Source of the DNA: Aurantimonas manganoxydans SI85-9A1
Lineage (GTDB): Bacteria; Pseudomonadota; Alphaproteobacteria; Rhizobiales; Rhizobiaceae
Direction: 5' to 3'
Length of the DNA: 64,000 nt
Assembly (NCBI RefSeq): GCF_000153465.1
Contig: NZ_CH672387.1
Coordinates: forward strand, 2,085,903 to 2,149,902
The translations under genes were made by a program, and so were the position numbers. Below the pieces are notes generated by a model. The model was given only the letters and a program-made list of their open reading frames with translations, made no database searches and had not been told where the DNA came from. Shown in pieces: positions 2,050-21,422 of this stretch. Each line of letters opens with the position of its first letter. Positions within the stretch are counted from its first letter, which is position 1.

Positions 2050-2788
<739 letters not shown>

Positions 2789-2792
<4 letters not shown>

Positions 2793-3820: not shown

Positions 3821-3846
3821 GGTCTCATCCGAAGACAGGGACAGGA

Positions 3847-3872: not shown

Positions 3873-3896
3873 CTGGCAGCGCGGTAACGCCCGGCG

Positions 3897-4841: not shown

Positions 4842-4936
4842 TCCATCCTCCCGAGATCCGGTGCGTTCGCGGCCTCCCAGCGTCGAACGCCCGTATTTTT
4901 CGTTGCGGAATCAATTAGAAGCGCCAACCGCCCCAA

Positions 4937-4965: not shown

Positions 4966-5092
4966 CGATGCTACGCTAGCTTCGGTGCTGCGATCGGTCA
5001 ATGGCCGGGCTGCGGCCGGCGGATTTCAACTTGGCGCCGCATGTATAGGCATGTTGCGGTGCAAAATCCGACAGTAAAGGGTTGATCTGCGT

Positions 5093-5116
5093 CGCCTTCG
5101 AGTGACACTCAAGGCG
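5093..5116. repeat. Bulged inverted repeat upstream of the lactonase gene
   Basis: CGCCTT-C-GAGTG and CACTCAAGGCG pair over 11 bp with one bulged C and a single-base centre, giving a near-palindrome about 60 bp upstream of the chosen lactonase start. It could be a second operator or, if transcribed, part of a leader structure. It is not the same motif as the 16-bp palindrome. Confidence 0.4.
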
Positions 5117-5176
5117 AGGGGCGGCGGCATGCGAGCCGCGAAGACCCGGGACGAACTGACGGCGGGAGGGGCGAAT

Positions 5177-6109
5177 ATGGGGGAAACAGGGTCGGTTGTA
5201 GCCGCGGAGGATCCGCGCTTTGCGGAATTCTTCCCGCCCGACGCGAAGCTGGAGCGCATCGCGGAGGGGTTCATCTGGGCCGAGGGGCCAGTCTGGTTCG
5301 ACGAGATCGGCGAATTGCGCTTCTCCGACATTCCCAACAACCGCATCATGGCCTGGACGCAGGAGGGCGGCCTGCGCGTCTTCCGCCAGCCGGCGCAGAG
5401 CACCAACGGTCATACCCGCGACCGCGACGGGGCAATGATCTCCTGCGAGCATACCGGGCGCTGCGTCAGCCGGACCCGGATGGACGGCACCTACGAGGTG
5501 CTGGCGACACATTGGCAGGGCAAGCGGCTGAACTCGCCCAACGACGTTGTGGTCAAATCCGACGGCTCGATCTGGTTCACCGATCCGCCCTACGGGATCA
5601 TCTCGGACCATGAGGGCATTCGCGCCGAAAGTGAGATCGGTTCGAACAACGTCTACCGGATCGATCCCGACACCGGTGTGGTCGAGCTCGTCGCCGACGA
5701 TTTCGACCGGCCCAACGGCCTGGCCTTCTCGGTCGACGAATCCGTTCTCTACGTCGCCGATTCGGGCCGCGCCCGCGGCCACGGCTTCGGCACCGACGAC
5801 AGCCGGCCGCATCACGTTCGCGCACTGACCGTGGTCGATGGCCGGCGGCTGGGGACGAGCCAGGTCGTCTGCGAGGTCGACCGGGTGCCCGACGGCCTGC
5901 GGGTCGATACGGAGGATCTCCTCTGGGTCTCGGCGGCCGACGGCGTCCATTGCTTCACGCCGGCCGGCGAACGGCTCGGCCGCGTGCGGGTACCGGAGGT
6001 CGTGGCCAATCTCACTTTTGGCGGGCCGGACCGCTCGCGGCTCTTCATCTGCGGGACGAGTTCGATCTACGCCATCGACACCACGCGCTGCGGGGCGCAG
6101 TGGCCGTGA
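5177..6109 (+). CDS. SMP-30/gluconolactonase/LRE family protein
   Basis: 310-residue six-bladed beta-propeller lactonase. Family metal-site neighbourhoods are visible: Glu in WAEGPVWFDE near the N-terminus, Asn in LNSPNDVVV and Asp in VPDGLRVDTED. The member would hydrolyse a sugar-derived lactone to an aldonic acid. The ATG at 5177 is chosen because GGGAGGGG lies just upstream; in-frame starts at 5102 (GTG) and 5129 (ATG) would only add a basic tail lacking family similarity. First gene of the plus-strand unit, followed 67 nt later by the mutarotase gene. Confidence 0.9.
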   Translation: MGETGSVVAAEDPRFAEFFPPDAKLERIAEGFIWAEGPVWFDEIGELRFSDIPNNRIMAWTQEGGLRVFRQPAQSTNGHTRDRDGAMISCEHTGRCVSRTRMDGTYEVLATHWQGKRLNSPNDVVVKSDGSIWFTDPPYGIISDHEGIRAESEIGSNNVYRIDPDTGVVELVADDFDRPNGLAFSVDESVLYVADSGRARGHGFGTDDSRPHHVRALTVVDGRRLGTSQVVCEVDRVPDGLRVDTEDLLWVSAADGVHCFTPAGERLGRVRVPEVVANLTFGGPDRSRLFICGTSSIYAIDTTRCGAQWP

Positions 6110-6176
6110 TCGTTGGCGTCCGCAACCTCGTCGCAAGCATCCGGCGCCGGAACGGGGCCGCTCACCAGAAGGACCA

Positions 6177-6629
6177 ATGCGCATGCTGAAGGGGATCGAC
6201 CCGCTCCTGAACGCCGAATTGCTGGGCGTCCTTGCCGCGATGGGACATGGCGACGAGATCGTCATCACCGACGCGAACTTTCCGTCCGAATCGGTGGCGC
6301 GCGACACGGTGCACGGGACCGCGCTGCGCATGGACTGCTCGGCCCCGCGCGCGGTCGAGGCGATCCTGTCGCTGCTGCCGGTCGACGATTTCGAGCCCGA
6401 CGCCGTACGCTTCATGAATGTCGTGGGCGATCCCCAGGCCCGGCCGGAGGTGATCCAGGAGGGCGAGGCGCTGTTTCGGGCCGAAGGCGCGGACCTGACC
6501 GGCGTCGACCGGTTCGATTTCTACGATCAGGCGCGCGAGGCCTATGCGATCGTACAGACGGCCGAGCGGCGTTTCTACGGCAACTTCATCATCCGCAAGG
6601 GCGTCATCCCGCCGGGTTCCGGCAGCTGA
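6177..6629 (+). CDS. RbsD/FucU-family sugar mutarotase
   Basis: 150-residue protein of the RbsD/FucU fold, which interconverts alpha and beta anomers of sugars such as L-fucose or D-ribose. Recognised from MLKGIDPLLNAELL, the MGHGDEIVITDANFP segment with the catalytic-site His, and the C-terminal YGNFIIRKGVI. Length is normal for FucU. AGAAGGA lies just upstream of the ATG at 6177; a second ATG two codons later is also possible. FucU proteins usually accompany L-fucose pathways, so the module may act on fucose or a related 6-deoxy sugar. Confidence 0.9.
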   Translation: MRMLKGIDPLLNAELLGVLAAMGHGDEIVITDANFPSESVARDTVHGTALRMDCSAPRAVEAILSLLPVDDFEPDAVRFMNVVGDPQARPEVIQEGEALFRAEGADLTGVDRFDFYDQAREAYAIVQTAERRFYGNFIIRKGVIPPGSGS

Positions 6630-6637
6630 GGCGCGCG

Positions 6638-7525
6638 ATGTCGGAGCGGATCGACGCCCATTGCCATTTCTGGGAGCTGTCGCGGGGCGACTATCACTGG
6701 CTGCAGGACAATGACGATCCGGCGCTGGCGCCGATCCGGCGCAATTTCGGTCCCGCCGATCTGCGCCCGCTTTCGGCAGCGGCCGGGATCGGGCAGGTGG
6801 TCCTGGTGCAGGCGGCCGAAAGCGACGCCGAGACCGATTTCATGGTGGCGCTTGCCCGGCAGAACGCGGACATCGCCGGTGTCGTCGGCTGGGTCGATCT
6901 GGCCTCGGCCGGGGCTGCGGACCGGATCGCGGCGCTTGCAGTGGAGCCGGCGCTGACATCGCTGCGGCCGATGCTGCAGGACATTGCCGATCCCGACTGG
7001 CTGCTGGTGGCGCCGACGCCCGCGGCACTCGCCGCCCTGGAGCGCTCAGGCCTGCGCTTCGACGCACTGGTGTTGCCGGTGCATCTGTCGCGGCTCGCGA
7101 CTTTCTGCGCCGCCCATCCCGATCTGGCGGTCATCATCGACCACGCCGCCAAGCCGGCGCTCGGCGCGCCGGCGGACGATCCGCGCCATGCCCTGTGGGC
7201 CGAGGGGATGGCCCGGCTGGCCAGCGAGACGGACTGCGCCTGCAAGCTGTCCGGCCTCCTGACCGAAATGCGGCCTGACCAGCGCGACACGCCGGAAGCG
7301 GCTCTGGCCGTCCTGCAACCGGTGTTCGAGCGGCTGTTGGACTGGTTCGGGGTGGATCGCCTGGTCTGGGGCTCGGACTGGCCGGTGCTGACCCTTGCGG
7401 CGTCCCACGCCCGCTGGGTCGAGATCACAGACGCCTTGCTTGGCCCTCTGTCGGCGAGCGAGCGCGCCGCGATCCTCGGCGGCAATGCCCGCCGGTTCTA
7501 TGGGCTAGCCGACTCGAATAACTGA
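6638..7525 (+). CDS. Amidohydrolase family protein (L-fuconolactonase-like)
   Basis: 295-residue TIM-barrel amidohydrolase (Amidohydro_2). The metal-binding motif DAHCHFWE lies at residues 6-13, further histidines appear in VIIDHAAKP, and the late Asp is in WGSDWPV. Family members include L-fucono- and L-rhamnono-lactonases and 2-pyrone-4,6-dicarboxylate hydrolase. With the FucU-like gene 8 nt upstream, a sugar lactonase is the best reading. Its presence beside an SMP-30 lactonase gives the locus two unrelated lactonase folds. Confidence 0.88.
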   Translation: MSERIDAHCHFWELSRGDYHWLQDNDDPALAPIRRNFGPADLRPLSAAAGIGQVVLVQAAESDAETDFMVALARQNADIAGVVGWVDLASAGAADRIAALAVEPALTSLRPMLQDIADPDWLLVAPTPAALAALERSGLRFDALVLPVHLSRLATFCAAHPDLAVIIDHAAKPALGAPADDPRHALWAEGMARLASETDCACKLSGLLTEMRPDQRDTPEAALAVLQPVFERLLDWFGVDRLVWGSDWPVLTLAASHARWVEITDALLGPLSASERAAILGGNARRFYGLADSNN

Positions 7526-7729
7526 CCGATCTCGGCAGGGACGCCCGGCGCCGGGAACCGTTTTCGCACCCTCAGATGCCGAGGATGTGTTCTCCGGCGC
7601 GAACTGTCCTTCGCCCGCTGATCAGCAACGACGCGAAATTCAACGCGACAGTACAACGTGAACGCGCTCCTCTTCCGTTGCGAAACGTGCCAGCTTGACC
7701 AGCGTGCAATGCAGCATCGAGGCCGTTCC

Positions 7730-9391
7730 ATGATCTCGCACGGTGTTCCTTCGCATTTCAGAACCGCGGAGATCTGCGTGGCGGGCACAGGGCCCGTCGG
7801 TCTCGCCGTCGCATTGCAGTGCGCGACGGCCGGTCTCAGGGTTCTCGTTCTGGAGTCCGGCACGGAGCGGGTGAGCCGCGAGCATCAGCGTCTTTCGACC
7901 TTTACCAGCGACGACGACATCATCCATGCGCCAGCGCACCTGACAGTGCGACGGATCCTCGGTGGCACCTCGACCATGTGGGGCGGGCGCTGCGTCGAGT
8001 ATGACGATATCGATTTCGCCAGGCGCGGCCATGTCGCGGGATCGGGCTGGCCGATCGCCCATGGCACACTGCAACCCTATTACGACACGGCGCGCCGTTT
8101 CCTCAGCAGCGACTTCGACGCCATCGCTCCGTCTCCCGGTGAGAGCGGCTTCCAGACCAATTCGCTGGAAAGCTGGACCCGCGACAGGAACACGGCGCAC
8201 TACCACCGCGAGACACTGAAATTGTCGCCCAACATCCTCGTGTGCACCGACAGCACATTGGTCGACGTGCGAATGCGCGACGGCGGCAACGCCGTCGAAG
8301 CGTTCGTCATCCGGTCGCGCGGGCAGGAAACCGTCGTGCGGGCCGGCTGCTTCGTGCTCGCCTGCGGGGGGCGCGAGAACGCCCGGCTGCTTCTCAACCT
8401 GCAGAGCCGCTTCCCAGCAATGTTCGGCGGGGACGGCGGCCCACTCGGGCGCCGGTACATGGGCCACCTGGCCGGAGAGATCGCATGTATCGAGTTCGCG
8501 GATTCACAACTCGCCGAAGCGTTCTTCTTTCGCCAAGCCGGCCGGCAGACCTTCATCCGTCACCGGTTTCGCCCGACCGACGAGACCCAGCGTCGGCATG
8601 ATCTCCTCAACATCGCTTTCTGGCCGAAGAGCCCGCCGCCGGAGGATGCGTCCCACAGCGACGGCGTCGCCTCGGCACTGCACATGATGAGCCGGCTTCG
8701 CATGCGCGCCCGCCACAGGCCGGGACGTCAGATCGATCCGACCGTCGCCAGCGCGCACCTGTCCAACATCCTTCGCAAACCGGGTCCCGCGATGATCGGT
8801 GCGGCGCGCTATGCCTGCCGGCAGTTGATCCCGCAGAGCCGGTACCCGCATTATTTCCTCAGGACCCCCGACGACATCTACCTTCTCCATTATCATTCCG
8901 AACATGCGCCGAACGACGCCAGCCGGATCACCCTGTCGTCGAACAAGGACGATTTCGGGGTGAACCGGCTGTCGGTGAGTTTTCGCTATGGCGACCAGGA
9001 TTTTCAGTCCGTCGTACGCGCGCACGAATTGCTGGACGAGTGGCTGAGGGCTCGTGGCTACGGTCGGCTGCGATATCTCGACGAAAGCGAGCGTCGCGTG
9101 GACGGCATCAAGCGCGGTGCCCGCGACGGCTATCACCAGATCGGCCTGACCCGCATGTCGGACCAGCCGAGGGATGGCGTCGTCGATACGGACTGCACCG
9201 CCCACGGGATCGCCAATCTCTCCGTCGCCGGGAGTTCCGTCTTCCCGACATCCGGCCAGGCCAATCCGACCCTCGCCGCCGTCGCGCTCGCCCAGCGACT
9301 GGGCGATCACCTGACCGCAATGCTTGCCACGCGCGGCTCGTCCATCATCCGGGCTTCGCGCGAACTGCCGCGAGGTTCTGCATCCAGGTAG
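7730..9391 (+). CDS. GMC-family FAD-dependent oxidoreductase
   Basis: 553-residue flavoprotein. The N-terminal FAD motif is VAGTGPVGLAVA with the following VLESG acidic residue. LGGTSTMWGG is the GMC flavin-contact motif. The C-terminal half has the catalytic-region His in YHQIGLTRM and the closing GQANPTLAAVALAQR. Members oxidise alcohols or sugar hydroxyls. The start at 7730 leaves the FAD motif close to the N-terminus; in-frame starts at 7658 (GTG) and 7709 are possible. A 204-bp gap separates it from the lactonase gene, so co-transcription is uncertain. It is the only candidate sugar-oxidising enzyme on this strand of the locus. Confidence 0.85.
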   Translation: MISHGVPSHFRTAEICVAGTGPVGLAVALQCATAGLRVLVLESGTERVSREHQRLSTFTSDDDIIHAPAHLTVRRILGGTSTMWGGRCVEYDDIDFARRGHVAGSGWPIAHGTLQPYYDTARRFLSSDFDAIAPSPGESGFQTNSLESWTRDRNTAHYHRETLKLSPNILVCTDSTLVDVRMRDGGNAVEAFVIRSRGQETVVRAGCFVLACGGRENARLLLNLQSRFPAMFGGDGGPLGRRYMGHLAGEIACIEFADSQLAEAFFFRQAGRQTFIRHRFRPTDETQRRHDLLNIAFWPKSPPPEDASHSDGVASALHMMSRLRMRARHRPGRQIDPTVASAHLSNILRKPGPAMIGAARYACRQLIPQSRYPHYFLRTPDDIYLLHYHSEHAPNDASRITLSSNKDDFGVNRLSVSFRYGDQDFQSVVRAHELLDEWLRARGYGRLRYLDESERRVDGIKRGARDGYHQIGLTRMSDQPRDGVVDTDCTAHGIANLSVAGSSVFPTSGQANPTLAAVALAQRLGDHLTAMLATRGSSIIRASRELPRGSASR

Positions 9392-9429
9392 GTGCCCGCG
9401 CCCTTCCGGAGACAGACAGAGTCTCTGCT

Positions 9430-10094
9430 GCCCGCCCCACCATGCCGGCGTGTCGGTTACCGGAATGCTCAGCGCATTGAACTTGACCACGGGCAGGCGC
9501 GTCATGCTCGGTCCGAGGCGATCGGCGAAGAGGGTCGCCTGCAGGTGCACATTGCTATTGCGGATCTGCGGGTCGTTGGCCGTCTTCCACTTGACCATCT
9601 GCTGCTGGACCAGGCTGGCGATCCGCGTTTCGGATCCGGCGTCCAGCGTCTCCCGCAAGAGATAGAGCGGCAGGAACACCGAATGCGAGCCGGCCGACAT
9701 CGCCGGATCGGCGAGCAGTTCCTAGCCGAAGCCCAGCGCGCCCTCGAGCGGGGTTACCTTCGCCGCCGGGTGACGGTGCCGAGACTGCCGGCCGGCTGGG
9801 CCAGAAGCGCGTCGAGGAGGTGGGTCCGGGTGGCGTCAAGCAGCGTCGCGGCCCCCGCGCCGATGGTGATGTCGGCATTCGCGGTGATCAGCGGGACCAC
9901 CGAGTTGGGGAATTGCGCGATCTCCGAGATGTAGACGAAGACCTCGTTGGTGGTCTTGTGCATCGAACGCGGCGCCAGCTCGAAATTGCGCCAGACCCAG
10001 GCCTTGGTGTTGGCGCTCTGGAAATCGCCGCCCCATGCGCCTTGCGCTCCACAGCAACGATGCAGGTGAGCTTGCAGGCGTCTTTTTTCCGCAC
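9430..10094 (-). pseudogene. Broken gene of unknown function, at least two frameshifts and one stop
   Basis: Protein-like sequence continues across all three minus-strand frames. From about 10094 one frame reads CIVAVERKAHG; a second, from about 10040, carries WGGDFQSANTKAWVWRNFEL, EVFVYISEIAQFPNS and ITIGAGAATLLDATR; a third, from about 9790, carries VTPLEGALGFG, an in-frame TAG at 9721-9723, then VFLPLYLLRETLDAGSE and VQQQMVKWKTANDPQIRN down to about 9450. Together they would form one protein of roughly 210 residues or more. No family was recognised. The boundaries are approximate. It lies directly downstream of tRNA-Ser, a typical place for decaying acquired DNA. Confidence 0.6.
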
Positions 10095-10108
10095 GGGAGA
10101 AAGGCAGG

Positions 10109-10130
10109 GAATGCGGCAGGGAACGCATTC
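10109..10130. repeat. Short hairpin near the pseudogene 5' end
   Basis: GAATGCG and CGCATTC form a 7-bp stem around an 8-nt loop. There is no T tract, and its role is unclear. Confidence 0.3.
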
Positions 10131-10161
10131 AGCAAAACCAGAACAGATATATGATTCAATG

Positions 10162-10173
10162 ATTTATATAAAT
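10162..10173. repeat. AT-only palindrome beside the tRNA 3' end
   Basis: ATTTATATAAAT is a perfect 12-bp palindrome 3 nt from the encoded CCA of tRNA-Ser, in otherwise GC-rich DNA. It may be part of the transcript end or a relic of integration at the tRNA. Confidence 0.35.
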
Positions 10174-10176
10174 ACG

Positions 10177-10266
10177 TGGCGGATGGGGTGGGATTCGAAC
10201 CCACGGTACGGTCTCCCGCACGCCGGTTTTCAAGACCGGTGCCTTCAACCGCTCGGCCACCCATCC
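10177..10266 (-). tRNA. tRNA-Ser (anticodon UGA)
   Basis: Read on the minus strand it has a 7-bp acceptor stem (GGATGGG with CCCATCC), D arm with GCCGAGCGGTTGAAGGC, anticodon stem CCGGT/ACCGG with loop CTTGAAA (TGA at 10232-10230), the long class II variable arm typical of tRNA-Ser, and the T arm GTGGG-TTCGAAT-CCCAC. Discriminator G and an encoded CCA (10179-10177) complete the 3' end. It decodes UCA and, by wobble, other UCN serine codons. Confidence 0.97.
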
Positions 10267-10693
10267 GTGCATTGATTTCACAAGCTTATTCGGCTTCTGC
10301 GATCGGCCGAGGAGGGCCTTTGCTACCGAATTGCTGCTGAACGGCTTCACCCGCAAGGCTTTACCGCCTGCCGGATCGCCAGGTCAACCTGTACAGCCGT
10401 GTCCGACTGCACGCCAGTCGCGCAGACACGCAATCGGCGAGAACGATGCCGTAAGCGATCCATGATTCCCGTAAAACATTCGAGGAATCTCACGAGAGAT
10501 CCGAGCACGACAAGGCCCGCATCGTCGAGAAGCCGAAGCACAATGGACGGACGTAGCGGGGACATTCGGAGGAGATCCGAAACCGATTGCGCTGACGGAG
10601 CAGCATTGTCGCAACCGTTTCATTACGCTACCATCGCGAACGCGCAACGCGGGCGCGCAGCTTCAGTTCTGAAGAATGTAGAAGGACCATCAT
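10267..10693. other. Gene-free interval upstream of tRNA-Ser and the lipoprotein gene
   Basis: This stretch of about 430 bp should contain the tRNA-Ser promoter (minus) and the lipoprotein promoter (plus). Open frames here have low-complexity, arginine- and serine-rich translations with no family resemblance and are judged non-coding. No convincing -35/-10 pair was seen. Confidence 0.5.
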
Positions 10694-11083
10694 ATGCTTT
10701 ACCGTCTCTCAGGTTTCGTCGCTGCGGGCATCATGTTGTTTGGTGCCTCAGCCTGCACCACGCAGGGAGGAAGCGCCGGATCGGCGTCCGGGAGCGCAAC
10801 TGCTGTCGCGCAATCGAATGAGCGGGTTCAGCTCAGTCGTTCGGAGGTTGTTTCGATGTACACTGGCAAGACCCTGCGCGGATCTGGGCACTATCAGACC
10901 TACAAGGCCGATGGGACCTGGACAGGGAACAATGGGAACAGCGGACGCTGGTCGGTCGCCCCTGATGGAACGCTGATCCTGATGGGCGATGTCAATCTGA
11001 AGCTCGCCGTGTTCCGGGAAGGCGACCGCTTCTATCACCGCAACACCCAGACGGGTGAGGGCGGCTACTACCGTATCGGTTGA
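10694..11083 (+). CDS. Small secreted lipoprotein of unknown function (possibly DUF995-like)
   Basis: 129 residues. The N-terminus is a lipoprotein signal (hydrophobic LSGFVAAGIMLFGASAC; lipobox Cys at about residue 21, with the less usual Ala-Ser-Ala before it). A Ser/Gly/Ala-rich linker follows, then a compact domain rich in Trp, Gly and Tyr (MYTGKTLRGSGHY, GTWTGNNGNSGRWSV, GEGGYYRIG). The pattern of short beta strands resembles DUF995-type lipoproteins, but this is tentative. A GAAGGA ribosome-binding site sits 7 nt before the ATG. It stands alone, with a hairpin downstream, and looks like a monocistronic unit. Probably anchored in a membrane facing the periplasm. Confidence 0.75.
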   Translation: MLYRLSGFVAAGIMLFGASACTTQGGSAGSASGSATAVAQSNERVQLSRSEVVSMYTGKTLRGSGHYQTYKADGTWTGNNGNSGRWSVAPDGTLILMGDVNLKLAVFREGDRFYHRNTQTGEGGYYRIG

Positions 11084-11128
11084 TCGATCTTTCCAAGCGG
11101 TAGCCACGCATCTGTGCCACTACATCCA

Positions 11129-11154
11129 CCCGGCCACCTTCATGGGCGGCCGGG
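11129..11154 (+). terminator. Probable terminator of the lipoprotein gene
   Basis: CCCGGCC and GGCCGGG form a 7-bp GC stem around a 12-nt loop, followed by CCTTGTTGCAGTTTG, a weak T-rich tail. It is located 45 nt after the stop codon. Confidence 0.5.
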
Positions 11155-11294
11155 CCTTGTTGCAGTTTGACATTCCGTGGTCAGCAAAGAAAATTTGATA
11201 CTTAACCATTTATAAACTCTGGCGTATCCATTTCAAAAAACCTGTGCATATTCCACGACGCGGAACGACACCGTGGAACGTGCAGGAGTACAGC

Positions 11295-11900
11295 ATGCCG
11301 GTCGAAGTAGACGTCAAAGATACCTCCCCTGAAATGGCGAAATTTCTTTCGGAAGCTCTTTCGGGAGATTACGGTGAACGGAACGAAAAGTTGGCAACCG
11401 GATCCAGCGTATCGCCGGCTCCTGCACAGGGCGCGGTGGATCCGACTGTACGCCTGCCTCGCCGCATCGATGGCGGCTTTGCCGGGCTTGGTCACGATCT
11501 GGACAAGCATGGCAGAGAATGCCGCCATGCAGTGCGCCTGATGGAACAGCTTCGCCCGCCGCTCGAAGCCGCCGAAGCCGAGAGGATTCGCCTCCAGCAG
11601 TCGCTGACGCGGATACTGCCGGAGATCGATGAGAATGGCCGCACCCTTTCCGGCATGATCGAGAACGCGCGCAAGGGCGACGTGAATGGCGATCTGGCTG
11701 CAAAGTTCAGCAAGAGCGCGGCCAAGCTGGACGAACTCGAAAGTCTTGCCGAGGCGCTCAACGCGAACCTGATGGCCGTCCGGTCCGCCTGGGAACAGTA
11801 TGCTCGCGCGGCAATTCAGGCGCAGCGCCTGCGGGATACGTACAAGTCCCATCGAGCCGGTGCGGTATCCGATCGTACATCCGTGGAGGCAAACGGCTGA
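11295..11900 (+). CDS. Hypothetical helical (coiled-coil-like) protein
   Basis: 201 residues, no signal peptide or membrane segment. After a Pro/Ala linker (about residues 35-60) the rest is rich in Ala, Glu, Leu and Arg with heptad-like spacing (LEAAEAERIRLQQSL, LDELESLAEALNANL, ARAAIQAQRLRDTYK), suggesting long helices. No family was recognised. The ATG at 11295 is preceded by GGAG at a good distance; an in-frame start 51 nt upstream lacks one. An AT-rich stretch at 11180-11240 may hold its promoter. Monocistronic and probably accessory. Confidence 0.65.
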   Translation: MPVEVDVKDTSPEMAKFLSEALSGDYGERNEKLATGSSVSPAPAQGAVDPTVRLPRRIDGGFAGLGHDLDKHGRECRHAVRLMEQLRPPLEAAEAERIRLQQSLTRILPEIDENGRTLSGMIENARKGDVNGDLAAKFSKSAAKLDELESLAEALNANLMAVRSAWEQYARAAIQAQRLRDTYKSHRAGAVSDRTSVEANG

Positions 11901-12733
11901 CGCGAGATAAGAACTGCCGCCCGCACGTTGTTTCGCTGCCGGACAAGGCCGCACAGAACCTGCAAGGCGCGGCTTGAGCTCGTGGACGCCGTTGGATGTA
12001 GCGCAACTCGTCGAAGGCTCCACGGAGCCCCGGTGTTTCGGCATCGGGGCTCGCAGATTCATGCGTTCGCCAGTGAGACTGGGCGCCACCGCCACGATCG
12101 ACAGGCCCTGACGTGCCAACCCGGTCGATTTTGGCGGGTGGCCCGGTCTTCTTCCATTCAGCGACGATCGATCCGATTGCGCAGGTGCTGCAACACTTAC
12201 GTCTCAAGGCTTCAGGCTACACGCCCATGTGCACCGTCGCAGATCGGTCCTGAATCGGGATCGGATCGAAGGAAGGGCACAGTGTGGAGCCTCGTTCGGG
12301 TTGAAGAGGGCGATGTAACAATTCGTGAACAGGCCGGGTCGCATGGGGATCGGCAGTTCAACCGTGGCGGCAATGTGGCGCCCGCCTCGGGTTGGCAGGT
12401 TCGCGCGGCTGTGGGCATGCTGGCGGATCGTGCCGTGTTCGCGTGCCAGAGCCTGTTCGGACTCAAAGCCTTATTCGGTGGCGCGGCAGGGGTCCCGCCA
12501 CGTTTGGAAGGCATGGCCGCGCGCAGTCGGCGGGTCGGGAAGAGCCTTTCGGCTGCGCGCTGCCATCGGCCAAGTCAAGTCCTGAAAAGGCCGGCGGATC
12601 CGGTGTGTGGCGGCCGCTGGTTTGCCCGGCGGGTTCAGTCTTTGGTAAGCTCCAGCCTGCATGGGGGCGCAGGTGCCGGAAGTGCCGCTCGCGGATCTTC
12701 CGGATGTGTATTGAGTGATGGAAGGGGCGCAGC
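11901..12733. other. Long gene-free interval before rlpA
   Basis: About 830 bp without a credible gene. Open frames exist on both strands, including one of 276 codons on the plus strand, but their translations are arginine-rich, lack hydrophobic patterning and carry no motif. A hairpin occurs at 12025-12052. The rlpA promoter should be near its right end, but no clear -35/-10 pair was seen. It may hold eroded genes or an unrecognised RNA. Confidence 0.5.
12025..12052 (+). terminator. Possible terminator after the helical protein gene
   Basis: GAGCCCCG and CGGGGCTC form an 8-bp stem with a 12-nt loop, 125 nt downstream of the stop. No T tract follows, so a rho-independent role is uncertain. 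Confidence 0.35.
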
Positions 12734-13864
12734 ATGGGCATTGCCGCTGCGAGACTGAAACGACACGGGCTGATGACCGGCCTGATCGTTTCGTCCGGAA
12801 TGTTTCTGGCCGGCTGCACGGGGGCGCAGTCCCCGGTCGAGGAACTGGCCGACATCAGCACCACCGTGAAATTCGACTCCCGGACCTTCGGCGTTCCGGC
12901 CAGTCCGCGCATCACCACTGCCAAGCGCGTGCCCAAGGGCGGCGGCCGCTCGCAGGTCGGCAAGCCATACAAGGTGCGCGGCAAGTGGTACTATCCCAAG
13001 GACGATCCGGGCTATTCGAAGTCCGGCACGGCGTCGTGGTACGGCCCGAACTTCCACGGCCGCCTGACCGCGAATGGCGAAGTCTACGACATGCACGGCC
13101 TGTCGGCGGCCCACAAGACGTTCCCGCTGCCGTCCTATGCGATGGTCACCAATCTCGAGAATGGCAGCCGCGTCATGGTGCGGGTCAACGACCGCGGACC
13201 CTTCGCCCATGGCCGCGAGATCGACCTTTCGGCCGTGGCGGCGAAGCTGCTCGACTTCCAGCATGCCGGCACCGCCGAGGTGCAGGTCGACTATATCGGC
13301 CGGGCGCCGCTGGAAGGCGACGACACGCAGATGCTGATGGCGAGCTACGTGCCGGCCCAGGGCGCCGATCCGTATGGCGACACCGTCATGGTGGCCTCGG
13401 CCGACGATCGGCCGATCCCGCAGCGCGGCGTTCAGCCGAACGCCATCGCCTATGGCGAGGCCCGCGAACTGCCGGGTGTGCGTCCGGACGCGGCCCGGGC
13501 GGGCGAGGGCAGGGGCGCTGGATCGGGTAAAGGCTTCGATCTGCGCCGGTTGCTGCCGCTGGACGGGATTGCCGCTTTCGCCAGCTCCTATGCACCGGCG
13601 CAGAGCGCTGGCGGTGCAGGTGATGCACTGTCGGCGGCGATCGCCGCGGAGCCGGAGCGGATCGCCGTCGGCACGATCGCTGGCGACCTGGCCGAGCGGG
13701 TGCGCAGCGTCGCATTCGGTCATGGCGAACTGGTCGAGGACGCAGTCCCGGGCAAGAATGGCCGCGTCGCGACGCTGGTCGTCGCCCCCGGTGCCGACAC
13801 CGATGCCGTGCTGCGTCGGCTCTGGCAGGTCGGCGCGGAAGACGCCTTCGTCATTCGCGACTGA
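12734..13864 (+). CDS. rlpA: RlpA-family septal ring lytic transglycosylase / lipoprotein
   Basis: 376 residues. A lipoprotein signal ends in LAGC with Cys28. The RlpA double-psi beta-barrel follows at about residues 97-190: GTASWYGPNFHGR, LTANGEVYDMHGLSAAHKT and VRVNDRGPFAHGREIDLS contain the conserved His and Asp of the catalytic groove. The C-terminal 60 residues (VRSVAFGHGELVED to EDAFVIRD) have a SPOR-like look, as expected for binding denuded peptidoglycan at the septum. RlpA cleaves peptide-free glycan strands. It heads the cell-wall and replication gene run that continues with dac, tmk and holB. Confidence 0.9.
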   Translation: MGIAAARLKRHGLMTGLIVSSGMFLAGCTGAQSPVEELADISTTVKFDSRTFGVPASPRITTAKRVPKGGGRSQVGKPYKVRGKWYYPKDDPGYSKSGTASWYGPNFHGRLTANGEVYDMHGLSAAHKTFPLPSYAMVTNLENGSRVMVRVNDRGPFAHGREIDLSAVAAKLLDFQHAGTAEVQVDYIGRAPLEGDDTQMLMASYVPAQGADPYGDTVMVASADDRPIPQRGVQPNAIAYGEARELPGVRPDAARAGEGRGAGSGKGFDLRRLLPLDGIAAFASSYAPAQSAGGAGDALSAAIAAEPERIAVGTIAGDLAERVRSVAFGHGELVEDAVPGKNGRVATLVVAPGADTDAVLRRLWQVGAEDAFVIRD

Positions 13865-13881
13865 TCGGTTGCGCGACCGGC

Positions 13882-13912
13882 CCGGCAGGCGGTGCCATGC
13901 CGGCCCTGCCGG
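13882..13912 (+). terminator. Hairpin between rlpA and the carboxypeptidase gene
   Basis: CCGGCAGG and CCTGCCGG form a perfect 8-bp stem around a 15-nt loop, 18 nt after the rlpA stop. CTCGTT follows rather than a T run; it may be an attenuator. Confidence 0.35.
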
Positions 13913-14072
13913 CTCGTTAAGGTTCTGCGCGCATCCTGTCCCGCGAAAGCGGAAACAAGTCTGACGGAAAGTGACGGCGCGCATGTTGCAGCAGCGTCCC
14001 GCCGCGGCCTAAAGTTCGCTCATCTTCCAGTGCCCGCGGTCCCCAGCCGCCGCCACGTGCAAGCGGACACCG

Positions 14073-15266
14073 ATGACAGACGCATTTCCGTTCAAGGCCT
14101 TCCTCGTCACCGTCTCTCTCCTGTTGCCGCTGGCAGGGCCGGTCGGTTCGGTCCTGGCCCAGGATGAGGACGTGCCGCGGATCGAGACGACGGCCCGCGA
14201 AGCGTTGCTCGTCGATGGCGAAACCGGCACGGTCCTGTTCGCCAAGAATGCCGACGCGCCGTTCCCCCCGGCCTCTCTCGCCAAGATGATGACGATGGAA
14301 ATCGTCTTTGCCGCGATCAAGGACGGGACGCTCACCCTCGACACGGAATTTCCCGTCAGCGAGCATGCCTGGCGCACCGGCGGCGCACCGTCGCGGACCT
14401 CGACGATGTTCGCCGAGCTGAAGTCGCAGGTGCCGGTCTCGGCGCTGATCCGCGGGGCGATCATCCAGTCGGCCAACGACGCTGCGATCGTCATCGCCGA
14501 GGGCATGGAAGGCTCCGAGGCGGCCTTTGCCGAGCGCATGAACGCCCGGGCCCGCGAGCTCGGCATGATCAATTCGCGCTTCGCCAATCCGACCGGCCTG
14601 CCGGCGGACGACCAGTATGTCACCGCCCGTGACCTGATCACGCTGGCGCGTCATCTCCGGTCCACCTATCCCGAGCTCTACGCGATCTATGCCGAGCCGG
14701 CCTTCGAGTGGAACAAGATCTTCCAGCGCAATCGCAATCCGCTGCTGTCGATGGAGATCGGCGCCGACGGGATCGAGACCGGCTACACCGAGGCCTCGGG
14801 GTTCAGCCTGGTCGGCGCCACCTCGCATGGCGGCCGCGATACGCTTCTGGCGGTGAGCGGGCTCGAAACCGCCGGCGACCGCGCCAGCGAAGCCCGCAAG
14901 CTGCTCCTGTGGGCGCGGGAATCGTTCGAATCGGAGACGCTGTTTCCGGCCGGCCAGATCGTCGGGTCGGCGAATGTCTTTGGCGGCGAATCCGGGAGTG
15001 TGGCGCTGGCCGCGACGGAGGCCGTCGAGGCGCTGGTCCCCGCCGACGCACCGGAGCTCGTCAGCCTGCAGATCCGCTATCTGGAACCGCTGATCGCGCC
15101 AATCGCCGAAGGCCAGACCGTTGCCTCGCTGGATATTCTGGTAGAAGGAGAGCCGGTGCTTTCGCGCGACCTCCACGCTGCCAGCGCGGTGGCCGCCGGA
15201 AGCTTCACCGACCGCGCGCTCGGCGCGGTCAGGGAGCTCGCCGTCGGCTGGCTCCGGACGCTCTGA
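14073..15266 (+). CDS. dac: D-alanyl-D-alanine carboxypeptidase (S11 family), atypical KTG motif
   Basis: 397-residue penicillin-binding carboxypeptidase that trims the terminal D-Ala from peptidoglycan stem peptides. A signal peptide covers about residues 1-29. The serine tetrad is Ser68-Leu-Ala-Lys71, the second motif is Ser133-Ala-Asn135, and the C-terminal beta-sandwich of PBP5/6-type enzymes follows the catalytic domain. The third motif, normally Lys-Thr-Gly, reads Glu235-Thr-Gly (codon GAG at 14775-14777) inside GADGIETGYTEASG. Loss of that lysine would be expected to impair or alter activity. The gene lies between rlpA and tmk, the usual rhizobial position. Confidence 0.9.
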   Translation: MTDAFPFKAFLVTVSLLLPLAGPVGSVLAQDEDVPRIETTAREALLVDGETGTVLFAKNADAPFPPASLAKMMTMEIVFAAIKDGTLTLDTEFPVSEHAWRTGGAPSRTSTMFAELKSQVPVSALIRGAIIQSANDAAIVIAEGMEGSEAAFAERMNARARELGMINSRFANPTGLPADDQYVTARDLITLARHLRSTYPELYAIYAEPAFEWNKIFQRNRNPLLSMEIGADGIETGYTEASGFSLVGATSHGGRDTLLAVSGLETAGDRASEARKLLLWARESFESETLFPAGQIVGSANVFGGESGSVALAATEAVEALVPADAPELVSLQIRYLEPLIAPIAEGQTVASLDILVEGEPVLSRDLHAASAVAAGSFTDRALGAVRELAVGWLRTL

Positions 15267-15285
15267 TCATCCACGCGGACGCGAA

Positions 15286-15969
15286 TTGACCCGATTTTTC
15301 ATGACATTCGAGGGCGGCGAGGGGAGCGGCAAGACGACCCAGATCGCGCGCCTTGCCGGCCATCTGCGCAGCGAGGGCCACGACGTCGTCACCACCCGCG
15401 AGCCGGGTGGCTCGCCCGGCGCGGACGCGCTGCGGCACGTCATCCTGTCGGGCGCCGCCGAGGGGCTGGGCGTCGAGGTCGAGGCGATGCTCTTCGCCGC
15501 TGCCCGCGCCGACCATGTCGACACGCTGATCCGGCCGGCACTGGATGCCGGCAAGATCGTCCTGTGCGACCGGTTCCACGATTCCACCCGGGTCTATCAA
15601 TTCCTCGATTCCGAGCTCGACCAGGATTATCGCGACGCGATGGAGCGGGCGGCGCTCGGCGATCTCCTGCCGAACCTGACCATCATCCTCGACGTGCCGG
15701 CGAGCGTCGGCGTCGAGCGGGCGCGGCAGCGCCGGGCCGACCATTCGCCCGACCGTTTCGAGAAGGAGGACGAAGCGCTGCACGAACGCCGTCGCCAGGC
15801 CTTCCGCAAGCTCGCCGAGGACGAACCGGAGCGCTGCGTGATCGTCGACGGCACGCAGGCCGAAGACAAGGTCGCAGCAGAGATCCGGGACCTCATCGAC
15901 GACCGCCTCGGGGCGGCCCGGTTCGAGGCGATCGGCCAGTCGCTGGGGGCAGGGCAGGCCATCCGATGA
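15286..15969 (+). CDS. tmk: Thymidylate kinase
   Basis: 227-residue dTMP kinase, making dTDP for DNA synthesis. The P-loop GGEGSGKTTQ, the DR(Y/F)-type motif in LCDRFHDST and the LID-region arginines in RARQRRADHSPDRFEKE are visible. A TTG at 15286 gives the N-terminus MTRFFMTFEGGEG, which fits the family; the next ATG (15301) would remove part of the first strand. Its stop overlaps the holB start (ATGA). Confidence 0.95.
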   Translation: MTRFFMTFEGGEGSGKTTQIARLAGHLRSEGHDVVTTREPGGSPGADALRHVILSGAAEGLGVEVEAMLFAAARADHVDTLIRPALDAGKIVLCDRFHDSTRVYQFLDSELDQDYRDAMERAALGDLLPNLTIILDVPASVGVERARQRRADHSPDRFEKEDEALHERRRQAFRKLAEDEPERCVIVDGTQAEDKVAAEIRDLIDDRLGAARFEAIGQSLGAGQAIR

Positions 15970-17024
15970 GCGACGCGGCGCTGGACATCCCGGCGAGCCA
16001 CGACGATCTCGACGGCGTGCCGCCGCCCGCGGCAACGCCCACGCTTTTCGGGCACCGCCGTGAATTCGCCGAACTGGCGTCGGCCGAAGCGGCCGGGCGG
16101 CTGCACCATGCCTGGCTGTTTCAGGGCCCGCGCGGGGTCGGCAAGGCGACGACCGCCTTCGCCTTCGCCCGGCACCTGCTTTCACCCGCGTACGCCAAAG
16201 GCACCGAGCCGCCGGTGTTCGATCCGGCCGACCCGGCCATGCGCCAGATCGCGCTCGGCACCTATCCCGGTCTCGTCCATGTGACCCGGCCGCCGGTCGA
16301 GAAGGGCACGGGCTTTCGCACCCAGATCACTGTCGAGGGCGTGCGCAAGCTCAACCGCTTCTTCCAGGCCACCGGCTCGCGCACGAGCTGGCGGATCGCG
16401 ATCATCGATCCGGCCGACGACATGAACCGCAGCGCCGCCAACGCGCTTCTGAAAATCCTCGAGGAGCCGCCGGCGCGCTCGGTCTTCCTGATCATGAACC
16501 ATACGCCGGGCCGGCTGTTGCCGACCATCCGGTCGCGCTGCCGCACGCTGCGCTTCGAGCCGCTGGGCGACCATGATCTGGCCGCAGCGACCGCCGCGGC
16601 GCTGCCCAGCGCCGGCAAGGATGAGATTGCCGCCGCCCTGCCGCTCAGCGAAGGCAGCGCACGGCAGGCGATCTCCCTGATCGCCTACGGCGGGATCGAG
16701 ATCCGGCAGTCGCTCCAGACGCTCATTGCAGCAGACCGGCCCGATTGGAACAGCATCCATTCCATGGCCGACGCCCTGACCCAGAAGGGGCGCGAGCAGG
16801 CGTACGAGTTTCTGATCACCGCGCTTCTGTCGGCAACAGCCGAGGCGAGCGAGGCCTGCCTTTCGCGCGGCGACAGCGCCGGGGCCGCGTCGCTCGCGGC
16901 GCTCTGGCAGGACGAGACCTCAAGGCTGCGCGAGGCTGCGGCCTACAATCTCGACCGCAAGCAGGCGCTGCTGACGCTTTTCGACCGGTTCTACCGCTGC
17001 CGCGGGGCGGCAAGCGCCGCCTGA
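15966..17024 (+). CDS. holB: DNA polymerase III subunit delta'
   Basis: 352-residue clamp-loader subunit of the AAA+ type. The N-terminal region has [21 protein letters not shown] (modified Walker A, as in delta' proteins), the middle has [22 protein letters not shown], and the arginine-finger-like segment is [14 protein letters not shown]. The start overlaps tmk by 4 nt, the usual bacterial tmk-holB coupling. Longer open frame upstream overlaps tmk and is not coding. Confidence 0.95.
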
Positions 17025-17131
17025 GCGGTCTTGCGGCAGGTTTCGGACGCCGATCGATTGAGCCGCCTGCGCCAATGCACTATGTCGCAGGGATCACGTC
17101 GCCTATCGTACCGGAGTTTGACGACAGCCCC

Positions 17132-18679
17132 ATGGCCGAACGCTTCTACCTGACCACCGCGATCTCCTATCCGAACGGTCGTCCGCATATCGGCCACGCT
17201 TACGAGTTCATCGCGACCGACGCCCTGGCGCGCTTCAAGCGGCTGGACGGCTACGACGTGTTCTTCCTGACGGGCACCGACGAGCACGGGATCAAGATGC
17301 TGCAGAGCGCGCGCGAGCAGGGCATCAGTCCGGCCGAGCTCGCCCGGCGGAACTCGGCCGAGTTCGAGGCGATGGCGGCGCTTCTGGGCGGCACCAACGA
17401 CGATTTCATCCGCACCAGCGAAGACCGGCACGTGGCCGCCAGCCAGGCGATCTGGACCAAGATGGCCGCCGCTGGAGACGTCTACAAGGACGCCTATTCG
17501 GGCTGGTACTCGGTCCGCGACGAAGCCTATTACGGCGAAGACGAGACCGAGCTGCGCGAGGACGGCAAGCGCTACGGGCCGCAGGGCTCGCCCGTCGAAT
17601 GGGTGGCCGAGGAAAGCTATTTCTTCAAGCTGTCGGAGTTCCAGGACCGGCTGCTGGCGCTTTACGAGGACAATCCGGACTTCATCGGCCCGGCCGAGCG
17701 GCGCAACGAGGTGATGTCCTTCGTGCGCTCGGGCCTGCGCGACCTGTCGATCTCGCGGACCACCTTCGACTGGGGCATTCCCGTACCCGGCGACGAGAAG
17801 CACGTCATGTATGTGTGGGTCGACGCCCTCACCAACTACCTGACCGCCACAGGCTTTCCGGAGGAGGGCGAGCGCTCGGCCTACTGGCCCGCCGACTTGC
17901 ATGTCATCGGCAAGGACATCGTGCGCTTCCACACGGTCTACTGGCCGGCCTTCCTGATGTCCGCCGGCCTGCCGGTGCCGCGCCGCGTCTATGCACACGG
18001 CTTCCTGTTCAACCGCGGGGAGAAGATGTCGAAGTCGGTCGGCAACGTCATCGATCCGGCCGCCCTGGTCGACGTCTACGGCCTCGATCGGCTGCGCTAT
18101 TTCCTGCTCCGCGAGGTGCCGTTCGGCCAGGACGGCAATTATTCCCACGAGGCGATCGTCAACCGGACCAATTCCGAGCTCGCCAACGATCTCGGCAATC
18201 TGGCGCAGCGGTCGCTGTCGATGGTGGGCAAGCATTGCGGCGCCAAGGTGCCGACGCCGGGCGCGTTCATCGAGGCCGATACCGCGATCCTGACGGCGGC
18301 GAACGACCTGTTGCCCAAGGTCCGCACGATGATCGACCGGCAGGAACTGCACGGCGTTCTCGCCGCGATCATCGCCGTGGTCAGCGAAGCCAATCGCTAT
18401 TTCGCCGGCCAGGAGCCCTGGGCGCTGCGCAAGAGCGATCCGGCGCGCATGGAGACGGTGCTGTTCGTCACCGCCGAATTCCTGCGCCGCGTGGCGATCC
18501 TGCTGCAGCCCTTCGTGCCGGAGAGCGCCGGCAAGCTGCTCGACATTCTCGGGGTCGGCCCGGACGCCCGGACGTTCAACGAACTGACGCCGGATGTCCG
18601 CCTGGCCCCGGGTGCTGACCTGCCGGCGCCGCAGCCGATCTTCCCGCGCTTCGTCGACGCGGAAGACGCCGCATCATGA
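17132..18679 (+). CDS. metG: Methionyl-tRNA synthetase
   Basis: 515-residue class I aminoacyl-tRNA synthetase. It begins [21 protein letters not shown], whose HIGH variant reads HIGH at about residues 19-22. The KMSKS loop is [10 protein letters not shown]. The anticodon-binding helical domain follows, and there is no C-terminal tRNA-binding EMAP domain; this is normal for the short alphaproteobacterial form. The ATG at 17132 fits the family N-terminus; an in-frame ATG 57 nt upstream would add an atypical tail. The stop overlaps the TatD gene by 4 nt. Confidence 0.95.
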
Positions 18680-19473
18680 TGCCGTTCCTCGTCGACAGCC
18701 ATTGCCATCTGGACTTCCCGGACTTCGCCGAGGATCGCGCGGACCTGATCGCCCGCGCCAAGGCCGAAGGCGTCGGCCTGTTCGTGACGATCTCGACCTT
18801 CGTCTCGAAGATCGAGAGCTTGAAGGCGATCACGCGGGACCACCCGGAGGTCTATGCCTCGGTCGGCACCCATCCGCACAATGCCGCCGCCGAGCCGGAT
18901 GTCAGCACCGCCGATCTCGTGCGTCTGTCGCAGGATCAGCGGATCGTCGCCATCGGCGAAGCCGGGCTCGACTATTTCTATGACAAGGCGCCGCGCGACA
19001 TTCAGGAGACGGTGTTTCGCCGGCATATCGCGGCGGCACGCGAGACCGGGCTGCCGCTGGTGATCCATTCGCGCGATGCCGACGAGGACATGATCCGCAT
19101 CCTCGAGGACGAAAGCGGGAAGGGGGCCTTCCCCTTCATCCTGCACTGCTTCTCCGCCGGACCGCGGCTCGCCGAGGTCGGCGTGGCGCTTGGCGGCCAT
19201 GTGTCGTTCTCCGGCATCCTGGCCTTCAAGAAGTCCGAGGAGATCCGCGCCATCGCCGCCGACGTGCCGATGGAGCGCCTGCTGGTGGAGACCGACGCGC
19301 CGTATCTCGCGCCGCCGCCGTATCGCGGCAAGCGCAATGAGCCGGCTTACGTTCGCCATACCGCCGAGGTCCTTGCAGAAACGAAGGGAGTCGATCTGGC
19401 GACCATCGCGCGCCAGACCTCGGACAATTTCTTCGCGCTGTTCTCGAAAGTTCCCGATCCGAGAACGGCTTAG
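18676..19473 (+). CDS. tatD: TatD-family metal-dependent hydrolase
   Basis: 265-residue TIM-barrel DNase/hydrolase. Metal ligands are seen in [11 protein letters not shown], the Glu in [10 protein letters not shown], His in VIHSRDA and FILHCFSAG, and Asp in [10 protein letters not shown]. Family members have 3'-5' exonuclease or D-aminoacyl-tRNA deacylase activity. Coupled to metG through an ATGA overlap and followed 15 nt later by the MBL hydrolase gene; this trio is conserved in the order. Confidence 0.93.
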
Positions 19474-19488
19474 GCGGAGACGCTGAGG

Positions 19489-20301
19489 GTGAGCGACACG
19501 CTACGGCTGACCATTCTGGGCTGCGCTTCATCGCCGGGCGTTCCGCGCATCAACGGCGACTGGGGCGCCTGCGACCCCACGAACCCGAAGAACCGCCGGC
19601 TGCGGTCGTCGGCGCTGATCGAGCGGATCGGACCGAATGGCCGGACCGTCGTCGCCATCGATTGCGGACCGGATTTTCGCGAGCAGATGCTGATGGTCCG
19701 GGTCGCGCATCTCGATGCCGTGGTGCTGACTCATCCGCATGCCGACCACATCCACGGCATGGACGATCTGCGCGGCTACATGCTGACGCAGAAGTCCCGG
19801 ATTCCGGTGCATTCCGACCATTCGACCCATGCCCGGGTGCTGGAAGCCTTTCGCTATTGCTTCGAGACTCCGGCGGGCAGCGCCTATCCGCCGGTGGCGC
19901 GGCATGTCGAGATCAGCGCCGGCGAGGCATTCTCAGTCGACGGCGCCGGCGGCAAGCTGAGCTTTGCGCCATTTCGCCAGGAGCACGGCTCGATCCATTC
20001 GCTGGGCTACCGGATCGGTCCGCTGGCTTATTGCAGCGATGTCAGCGACTTTCCAGACGCCGCCATCGAGGCCATTGCCGGTGCGCAGCATATCATCATC
20101 GACGCGCTCCAGTACCGGACGCATCCCAGCCATCTGTCTGTCGAACAGGCGCTCGACTGGATCTCGCGTCTCGGCGTGCCCGAAGCGACGCTGACCCACA
20201 TGCATATTCCGCTGGACTACGACACGCTCTGCCGCGAACTGCCGGACCATGTGCGTCCGGGCTTCGACGGCCTGACGCTGGAGTGGCCGCTCGACGCTTG
20301 A
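19489..20301 (+). CDS. MBL-fold metallo-hydrolase (PhnP-like)
   Basis: 270-residue metallo-beta-lactamase-fold phosphodiesterase-like enzyme. The GTG start gives TLRLTILGCASSPGVPRINGDWG, and the zinc motif is LTHPHADHIHGMDDLRGY. Later ligands are likely His in RQEHGSIHSLGY, Asp in YCSDVSDFP and His in THMHIPLDY. Similar to PhnP cyclic phosphodiesterase. No phn genes are nearby, so function in phosphonate use is not implied. Last gene before the dif-like site. Confidence 0.9.
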   Translation: MSDTLRLTILGCASSPGVPRINGDWGACDPTNPKNRRLRSSALIERIGPNGRTVVAIDCGPDFREQMLMVRVAHLDAVVLTHPHADHIHGMDDLRGYMLTQKSRIPVHSDHSTHARVLEAFRYCFETPAGSAYPPVARHVEISAGEAFSVDGAGGKLSFAPFRQEHGSIHSLGYRIGPLAYCSDVSDFPDAAIEAIAGAQHIIIDALQYRTHPSHLSVEQALDWISRLGVPEATLTHMHIPLDYDTLCRELPDHVRPGFDGLTLEWPLDA

Positions 20302-20380
20302 GCCGGCTGCGACCGGATCGCTGGCCCACCGAGGCCGTCCAACGTCCGGCATATCTGCCGCCCATCAGCAGTTATCTATT

Positions 20381-20408
20381 CGGTTCCATAATCTATCTTA
20401 TGCAACTT
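20381..20408. other. dif: Candidate dif site (XerCD chromosome dimer resolution)
   Basis: The 28-bp layout matches dif: left (XerC-type) arm CGGTTCCATAA, 6-bp centre TCTATC, right (XerD-type) arm TTATGCAACTT. The hallmark CATAA-N6-TTATG core is intact; about 17 of 28 positions equal Escherichia coli dif. It sits in a 248-bp gene-free gap. The five GGGNAGGG octamers I found to the left and the six CCCTNCCC octamers to the right all point to it, as KOPS sequences for FtsK should. Genes left of it run mostly rightward and the suf operon to its right runs leftward, consistent with replication ending here. Confidence 0.75.
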
Positions 20409-20549
20409 AGGCGTATGGGTGGATGGGTATGGACTCGGCTGTGGGCCGTGTGAGATGCCGCGATGCGTGTCGGCCATCGCTGGCCCTTCCCCTCCCGTCC
20501 GCTCGTCGCTATGCGGGATCGATCCGCAGGACTGTTCCGGAGTTTCGCC

Positions 20550-21422
20550 ATGACGCCATCCAAGGACGTTGCACGCCTCGTCGAGATCATGGCGGCACTG
20601 CGCGATCCGGTGACCGGCTGTCCCTGGGATGTCGAGCAGGATTTCGCGACGATCGCGCCCTACACGATCGAGGAAGCCTACGAGGTCGCCGACGCCATCG
20701 AACGCAACGACGCGGTCGACCTGCGTGAGGAACTGGGCGACCTGCTGCTGCAGGTCGTCTATCACGCGCAGCTGGCAACCGAGGCCGGCCTGTTCGATTT
20801 TGGCGACGTGGTGGACGGCATCACCCGCAAGATGATCCGCCGGCATCCGCATGTTTTCGGCGATGCGGAGGCGCGCTCGGCGGGCTCGGCCAAGGGCCAT
20901 TGGGAGCGCATCAAGGCCGCGGAAAAGGCCGAGCGCGCGGCGCTGCGCGAAACTGTCGCCACGGTCGCGCTGACGGCCGACACGCCGGTGCCAGAGGCTG
21001 CGGACCAGGCCGGATCGGGGTTTCTCGACGGGGTTCCGTCAGGCTTTCCGGCGCTGACGCTGGCGCTGAAAATCCAGCAGAAAGCCGCGAAAGTCGGCTT
21101 CGACTGGGATCGGCCGGAACCGATCGTTGGCAAGATCGTCGAGGAAATCGACGAAGTCGCCGAGGCCGCGGAGAGTGGCGACCGCGACGCGCTGGAGGGC
21201 GAGATCGGCGATCTTCTGTTCAGTGCGGTCAATCTCGCGCGCTATCACGAGATCGATCCCGAATCCGCGCTGCGGCGTTGCGTGCGCAAGTTCCGCGGGC
21301 GGTTTCGACATATCGAACAGGAGCTTGCTGCGACGGGCCGCGCCTTGGAAACCGCCAGTCTCGATGAAATGGAAGCGCTCTGGATCGCAGCCAAGACGCG
21401 CAACCAGCCGGCTGTCTCCTGA
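20550..21422 (+). CDS. mazG: Nucleoside triphosphate pyrophosphohydrolase MazG
   Basis: 290-residue house-cleaning enzyme that hydrolyses non-canonical NTPs to NMPs. Two MazG domains are visible: the first at about residues 15-100 (CPWDVEQDFATIAPYTIEEAYEV, LREELGDLLLQVVYHAQ, with the EExxE and ExxD metal motifs) and the second at about 175-250 (GFDWDRPEPIVGKIVEEIDE, LEGEIGDLLFSAVNLAR). The start is set at the ATG with GGAG 7 nt upstream; a longer in-frame extension is not conserved-looking. The promoter probably lies between the dif-like site and the gene. Confidence 0.95.
   Translation: MTPSKDVARLVEIMAALRDPVTGCPWDVEQDFATIAPYTIEEAYEVADAIERNDAVDLREELGDLLLQVVYHAQLATEAGLFDFGDVVDGITRKMIRRHPHVFGDAEARSAGSAKGHWERIKAAEKAERAALRETVATVALTADTPVPEAADQAGSGFLDGVPSGFPALTLALKIQQKAAKVGFDWDRPEPIVGKIVEEIDEVAEAAESGDRDALEGEIGDLLFSAVNLARYHEIDPESALRRCVRKFRGRFRHIEQELAATGRALETASLDEMEALWIAAKTRNQPAVS

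Follow-up and report, generated by a model that had tools for sequence, protein, structure and literature searches.

A predicted chromosomal dif site at the KOPS junction of Aurantimonas manganoxydans SI85-9A1

At a dif site, sister chromosomes that have become joined are separated by cutting before the cell divides. Six Rhizobiales replicons are tabulated in PMC2731167 (Table 1), four of which have a GCATAA left arm; the Bartonella site is printed there in reverse, and that of Brucella chromosome II differs. In the same table, the skew maximum is anywhere from about 0.1 kb to slightly more than 100 kb away from dif; dif need not coincide with the point at which replication terminates, as stated in PMC3025954 and PMC13342612. 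In Azorhizobium caulinodans, the alphaproteobacterial KOPS is given as GGGNAGGG, with a bias that runs from origin to dif (PMC2443382). Architecture imparting sequences (AIMS) are presented in PMC5993296 as a broader statistical class, likewise of strand-biased octamers pointing toward the terminus.

We analyzed a 64,000-nucleotide stretch of A. manganoxydans SI85-9A1 (hereafter the window; 2,085,903–2,149,902 of contig C1) from an assembly of 22 contigs and 4,326,814 bp, in which the main contig C1 measures 4,285,343 bp. At positions 20381–20408 of the window the plus strand reads CGGTTCCATAATCTATCTTATGCAACTT, and judging from its sequence this 28-mer is almost certainly an ordinary chromosomal dif site at the KOPS junction. 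An earlier note on this DNA had proposed a CATAA-N6-TTATG core with arms of the XerCD dif layout. We recovered that core at 20387–20402 (C1 2,106,289) as the only copy in the 64-kb window, and none of 100 shuffles contained any match. Two 11-bp arms form an inverted repeat around a 6-bp centre, as in known relatives. The note's direction of reading had to be reversed: the published dif orientation corresponds to the minus strand in this window, where the 28-mer reads AAGTTGCATAAGATAGATTATGGAACCG. Alignment with published alphaproteobacterial dif sequences places a putative XerC-binding arm, AAGTTGCATAA, at 20398–20408 and a putative XerD-binding arm, TTATGGAACCG, at 20381–20391, both on the minus strand. 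Between them lies the central hexamer GATAGA (20392–20397, minus strand), which is identical in the published sites of Mesorhizobium and Brucella chromosome I. Because the GCATAA form is on the minus strand here, the putative XerC arm would face mazG and the putative XerD arm the gene for an MBL-fold metallohydrolase, an assignment that we infer by alignment alone.

Compared with the sites in Table 1 of PMC2731167, the 28-mer is identical to the Mesorhizobium loti dif (AAGTCGCATAAGATAGATTATGGAACTT) at 25 of 28 positions, to that of Brucella chromosome I at 24/28, to that of Agrobacterium at 22/28, and to that of Bradyrhizobium at 20/28. Identity falls to 19/28 with the Bartonella site, taken in reverse, and to 15/28 with E. 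coli dif (PMC2731167). Three arm bases separate our site from that of Mesorhizobium, namely T for C at position 5 and CG for TT at positions 27–28. The 11-6-11 layout, the intergenic location, the single copy, and the position near the terminus are all common to this site and the chromosomal dif sites of Hyphomicrobiales described in PMC2731167. The KOPS octamer is likewise identical to that of A. caulinodans and has the same bias, with no evident difference from the account in PMC2443382; the value obtained here (132/140, below) comes from sampled stretches. As with AIMS, strand-biased octamers point toward the terminus, whereas here one motif tops the ranking rather than a broad class (PMC5993296). 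Judged by titles and the starts of abstracts, the papers found that mention both Aurantimonas and dif do not treat this site. This particular dif site may be unpublished; the kind of site is well known.

The 28-mer lies within a 248-bp gap between the end of the MBL-fold metallohydrolase gene (19489–20301, plus strand; PF12706, E = 1.4e-35), which follows metG and tatD, and the start of mazG (20550–21422, plus strand; NF007113, 345.5 bits against a cut-off of 208). We chose the mazG start at 20550 over an in-frame upstream ATG at 20463, since this is the ATG at which the congeners align and, counted from it, the family match starts at residue 7. The gap was described in the earlier note as free of genes. 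Two mechanical open reading frames overlap dif (19662–20453 on the plus strand and 20376–20900 on the minus strand), and we did not take them for genes. A switch in gene strand at dif, claimed in the same note, does not hold: dif sits between two plus-strand genes, and the first genes on the minus strand come after 21422, about 1 kb to the right. With both neighbours of dif on the plus strand, we dropped the strand switch as support for the site.

In all seven congeners, metG, tatD, and the MBL-fold gene lie to the left of dif and mazG lies to the right. One congener (G006) has an insert of about 1.3 kb between dif and mazG, in which open reading frames are apparently present when read by eye. 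Within the 28-mer, 7/7 congeners read GTTCCATAAT(A/C)TATCTTATGC, so that its inner 21 bases are unchanged except at one A/C position. Across an 816-bp region aligned in eight congeneric genomes (the window included), its mean column identity of 0.946 ranks third among 789 windows of the alignment, and the 28-bp windows of the gap average 0.617. Outside dif, the gap is 33%–68% identical between congeneric pairs and 90% identical between the window and G007; given this 90% identity, G007 is not independent of the window, and omitting it left the conserved runs nearly unchanged. The prediction that the 28-bp core would be more conserved than its surroundings was thus borne out among the congeners, in which the inner part is kept and the flanks are not.

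Of 30 genomes, our own included, 29 contain the bare core; as its reversed control is present in 23 of the 30, the core by itself proves little across relatives. We read the surroundings of 20 sites, from 20 of the 29 relatives, chosen by the core. TTC precedes the core in 20/20 and C follows it in 19/20, in one orientation; the 6-bp spacing of these sites is no separate evidence, since the search pattern demanded 6 bp. A looser motif with up to two mismatches was found in nine of ten genomes (G016 and nine that had not been aligned), with no control matches, and the single miss was a 1.1-Mb genome (G013). The dif site of G016 is uncertain because its looser-motif match lies elsewhere than the aligned site. 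A wider pattern, GTTCCATAATNTATCTTATGCNA, which specifies 21 bases in the core and in part of each arm, matched at least 117 loci. The 80 matches listed belong to genera such as Mesorhizobium, Brucella, Methylobacterium, Microvirga, and Rhizobium, all of which we take to be Hyphomicrobiales, or to unplaced bacteria. At these wider loci, the MBL-fold gene lies within 1.5 kb to the left of dif in 63 of the 94 with enough flank, in several genera, and mazG within 1.5 kb to the right in 18 of 84. It follows that dif has kept its place by metG-tatD-MBL through much of the order, with a right-hand neighbour that varies.

Within its own genome, the site is single. A 26-bp extended motif, searched with up to three mismatches across the whole 4.33-Mb assembly, matched the window site and nothing else, with no control matches; the search for a better dif match elsewhere, which the earlier note had named as a way to overturn its reading, thus returned none. 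The bare CATAA-N6-TTATG core occurs twice in the genome, the other copy being at C1:1,566,891. We set that copy aside, as the extended motif has no match there.

The orientation of GGGNAGGG changes around the 28-mer. Five octamers lie to its left, all on the plus strand (800, 4098, 13507, 15947, and 19117; span 800–19124), and ten to its right, all on the minus strand (20484, 23552, 30456, 36247, 37161, 38729, 45865, 47637, 57093, and 63591; span 20484–63598). All 15 therefore point toward dif, and the polarity switches between 19117 and 20484. The last KOPS of the left arm (19117–19124, plus strand) is within tatD, 1256 bp from dif, and the first of the right arm (20484–20491, minus strand) is in the gap, 75 bp from dif. 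The 11 polarized octamers listed in the earlier note are all real; its total was too low, as it missed those at 36247, 38729, 47637, and 57093, which have the same polarity. In number, 15 octamers compare with a shuffle mean of 9.84, and 15 or more were reached in 4 of 100 shuffles. The abundance of the octamer in the window is mildly above chance; its polarity is the signal.

This polarity extends along the chromosome. We sampled 44 stretches in addition to the window (939,902 bases in total, about 22%), with dif and hemE as boundaries, and found that 132 of 140 octamers point from the origin, as bounded by hemE, toward dif. Seven of the eight that point the wrong way are at most 94 kb from hemE, and the eighth is at 2,023,716, 83 kb to the left of dif. 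Over a contiguous 300 kb around dif, the octamer is on the plus strand in 22/22 cases to the left and on the minus strand in 26/27 to the right. The flip of strand at this site, which had been predicted, is accordingly visible on the sampled chromosome. In a subset of 839,902 bases, which predates four of the origin stretches and omits one near-origin stretch without an octamer, 118 of 121 octamers point toward dif. We ranked all 21,658 gapped octamers in this subset, with at least 60 counts and without prior choice, and GGGNAGGG had the strongest leading-strand bias (97.5%, against 87.2% for the second); the reversed control, GGGANGGG, was split 64 to 21. Counts over the whole assembly were 334 forward and 323 reverse, compared with 266 and 221 for the reversed control, and GGGNAGGG is therefore moderately enriched in number. 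Among the whole-assembly matches listed, the first 100 (to 821 kb) are all on the plus strand; the order of the list is unstated, and we left them uncounted.

The same pattern recurs in relatives. In ten of them, with 11 to 20 kb read per side, KOPS to the left of dif were 66 plus and 2 minus, and those to the right 2 plus and 58 minus; 124/128 were thus polarized, and the flip was present in 10/10. The octamers nearest dif point to it on both sides in nine of the ten, and in the remaining one (G017) the nearest right-hand KOPS, 438 bp from dif, points away. At the wider loci (at least 117), 382 of 422 KOPS had the expected polarity.

The gene hemE, which codes for URO-D and is the usual neighbour of the alphaproteobacterial origin, is at C1 4,157,049. 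Treating C1 as a nearly closed circle, as we presume it to be, dif is 2.05 and 2.23 Mb away by the two routes. A KOPS flip opposite to that of dif falls between about 4.15 and 4.18 Mb, in agreement with the position of hemE, and dif is nearly opposite the origin region. Around hemE (C1:4,055,001–4,245,000), KOPS orientations are mixed. We rejected dnaA (PF00308, best match at 3,703,983) as an origin marker: the sampled stretches on its two sides, at 3.655 and 3.855 Mb, hold two and zero minus-strand KOPS, respectively, and no plus-strand KOPS, so that no flip is seen there. This dnaA is off the KOPS flip of the origin region and about 453 kb distant from hemE.

GC skew shifts sign across the window. 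Among the sampled stretches (about 22% of the assembly), 19 of the 20 lying left of the window had positive skew, and 16 of the 17 on its right, up to 4.145 Mb, had negative skew. Over the contiguous 300 kb, cumulative skew peaked at 2545 at window position 13,988, compared with 2401 at dif and 1733 at the end. This peak is shallow, lies 6.4 kb to the left of dif, and is obtained from the window alone as well. The expected change of sign across the window was therefore found, but the extreme of the contiguous 300 kb was not at 20.4 kb, where the earlier note had predicted that of the whole replicon. This weak skew climbs again at about 44–64 kb of the window, and a two-segment fit in 1-kb bins gave near-equal optima at window positions −29,901 and +7,099. 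Together with the peak at 13,988, these features limit its resolution to no better than about 40 kb, and we discarded skew alone as a means of placing the terminus more finely than that. Around dif in ten relatives, skew was noisy, being positive on the left in seven and negative on the right in eight. Skew agrees with a terminus here and is too weak to pinpoint the base. The earlier note's broader proposal, that the window probably spans the terminus, gains support from the KOPS flip, the conservation, the single copy, and the position of dif nearly opposite hemE.

The genome encodes an FtsK that has a gamma domain: FtsK_gamma is matched once, at 97 bits against a cut-off of 30.6. With the XerD model, four matches were obtained, scoring 324.8, 221.6, 107.1 (on contig C22), and 22.6 bits, none of them above the curated cut-off of 329.6 bits, which was passed in just 4 of 14 control genomes. 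The two full-length chromosomal candidates (324.8 and 221.6 bits) are likely the XerC and XerD pair. The third Xer-like integrase is at C22:5121–5951, on a small contig that is possibly a plasmid or a mobile element. Given established knowledge of FtsK-XerCD, septal FtsK would load on KOPS (GGGNAGGG) and be steered along each arm to the point where polarity flips. There it would encounter XerC and XerD, each on an 11-bp arm of dif, and activate recombination across the 6-bp centre, resolving a chromosome dimer into two monomers. Binding by XerCD, activation by FtsK, and resolution of the dimer are all expected from that knowledge.

Two other explanations of the 28-mer were weighed against a chromosomal dif. 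The palindrome does lie upstream of mazG and might serve that gene as a regulatory operator or as part of its promoter, and the KOPS polarity might then be ordinary leading-strand G-bias, given that G-rich octamers are generally leading-biased, as the 64 to 21 split of GGGANGGG illustrates. Yet dif occurs without an adjacent mazG in six relatives, in which no mazG match (E up to 1e-8) was found in the 3 kb to the right (G009, G014, G015, G016, G017, and G029), and in G006 mazG is 1.4 kb from dif. Plain G-bias also fits poorly with a bias of GGGNAGGG above that of every other gapped octamer counted and with a polarity flip across the site in 10/10 relatives, and we consider this explanation extremely improbable. 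Xer-exploiting mobile elements are known, and the Xer-like integrase on C22 (107.1 bits) could be taken to suggest that such an element carries or uses a dif-like site that is not the chromosomal one. A single genomic copy, with no further match at up to three mismatches, the same flanking genes on both sides in 7/7 congeners, and the KOPS flip at the site all speak against this, and leave it barely credible.

Taking the 28-mer as the chromosomal dif, we noted one further feature beside it, the KOPS at 20484–20491, 75 bp away. It forms part of CCCTTCCCC (20484–20492), the longest run of the gap outside dif that is conserved in at least seven of the eight genomes; the next is 6 bp long (20508–20513). 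CCCTTCCCC is kept in seven of the eight congeneric genomes, the window included, and is lost in G006, the congener with the insert of about 1.3 kb between dif and mazG. At the wider loci, counting sides whose flank exceeds 2.5 kb, a permissively matched KOPS within 250 bp of dif was found on the right in 5/68 and on the left in 1/75, so that a KOPS this near to dif seems to characterize this genus and not the order. We tentatively raise the possibility, which we hold to be somewhat doubtful, that this KOPS, on one side only, may be under selection in the fast-changing gap of this genus as a final site of FtsK loading or steering, and that dif and the adjacent KOPS may be a functional unit approached from the side of the XerC arm. 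There is an even chance that CCCTTCCCC is instead a promoter element of mazG whose match to KOPS is incidental. CTTCCC (20486–20491) is 17 bp from CTATGC (20509–20514), a promoter-like spacing, and the conserved run of 6 bp covers 20508–20513. In each of the seven genomes with this KOPS, its free N is T. Against a promoter, CTTCCC is a poor match to the −35 consensus, and in G002 the CTAT box reads CTAC while the KOPS is still kept. In G006, mazG is parted from dif by the insert and lacks the CCCTTCCCC block, which tells neither way on a promoter.

Apart from the KOPS next to dif, the locus exhibits textbook chromosome architecture. The KOPS junction of this chromosome is fixed to within 1.4 kb, which provides a clean anchor for replichore-based annotation, and the dif-adjacent KOPS gives a modest starting point for asking if the final loading site ahead of dif is important.
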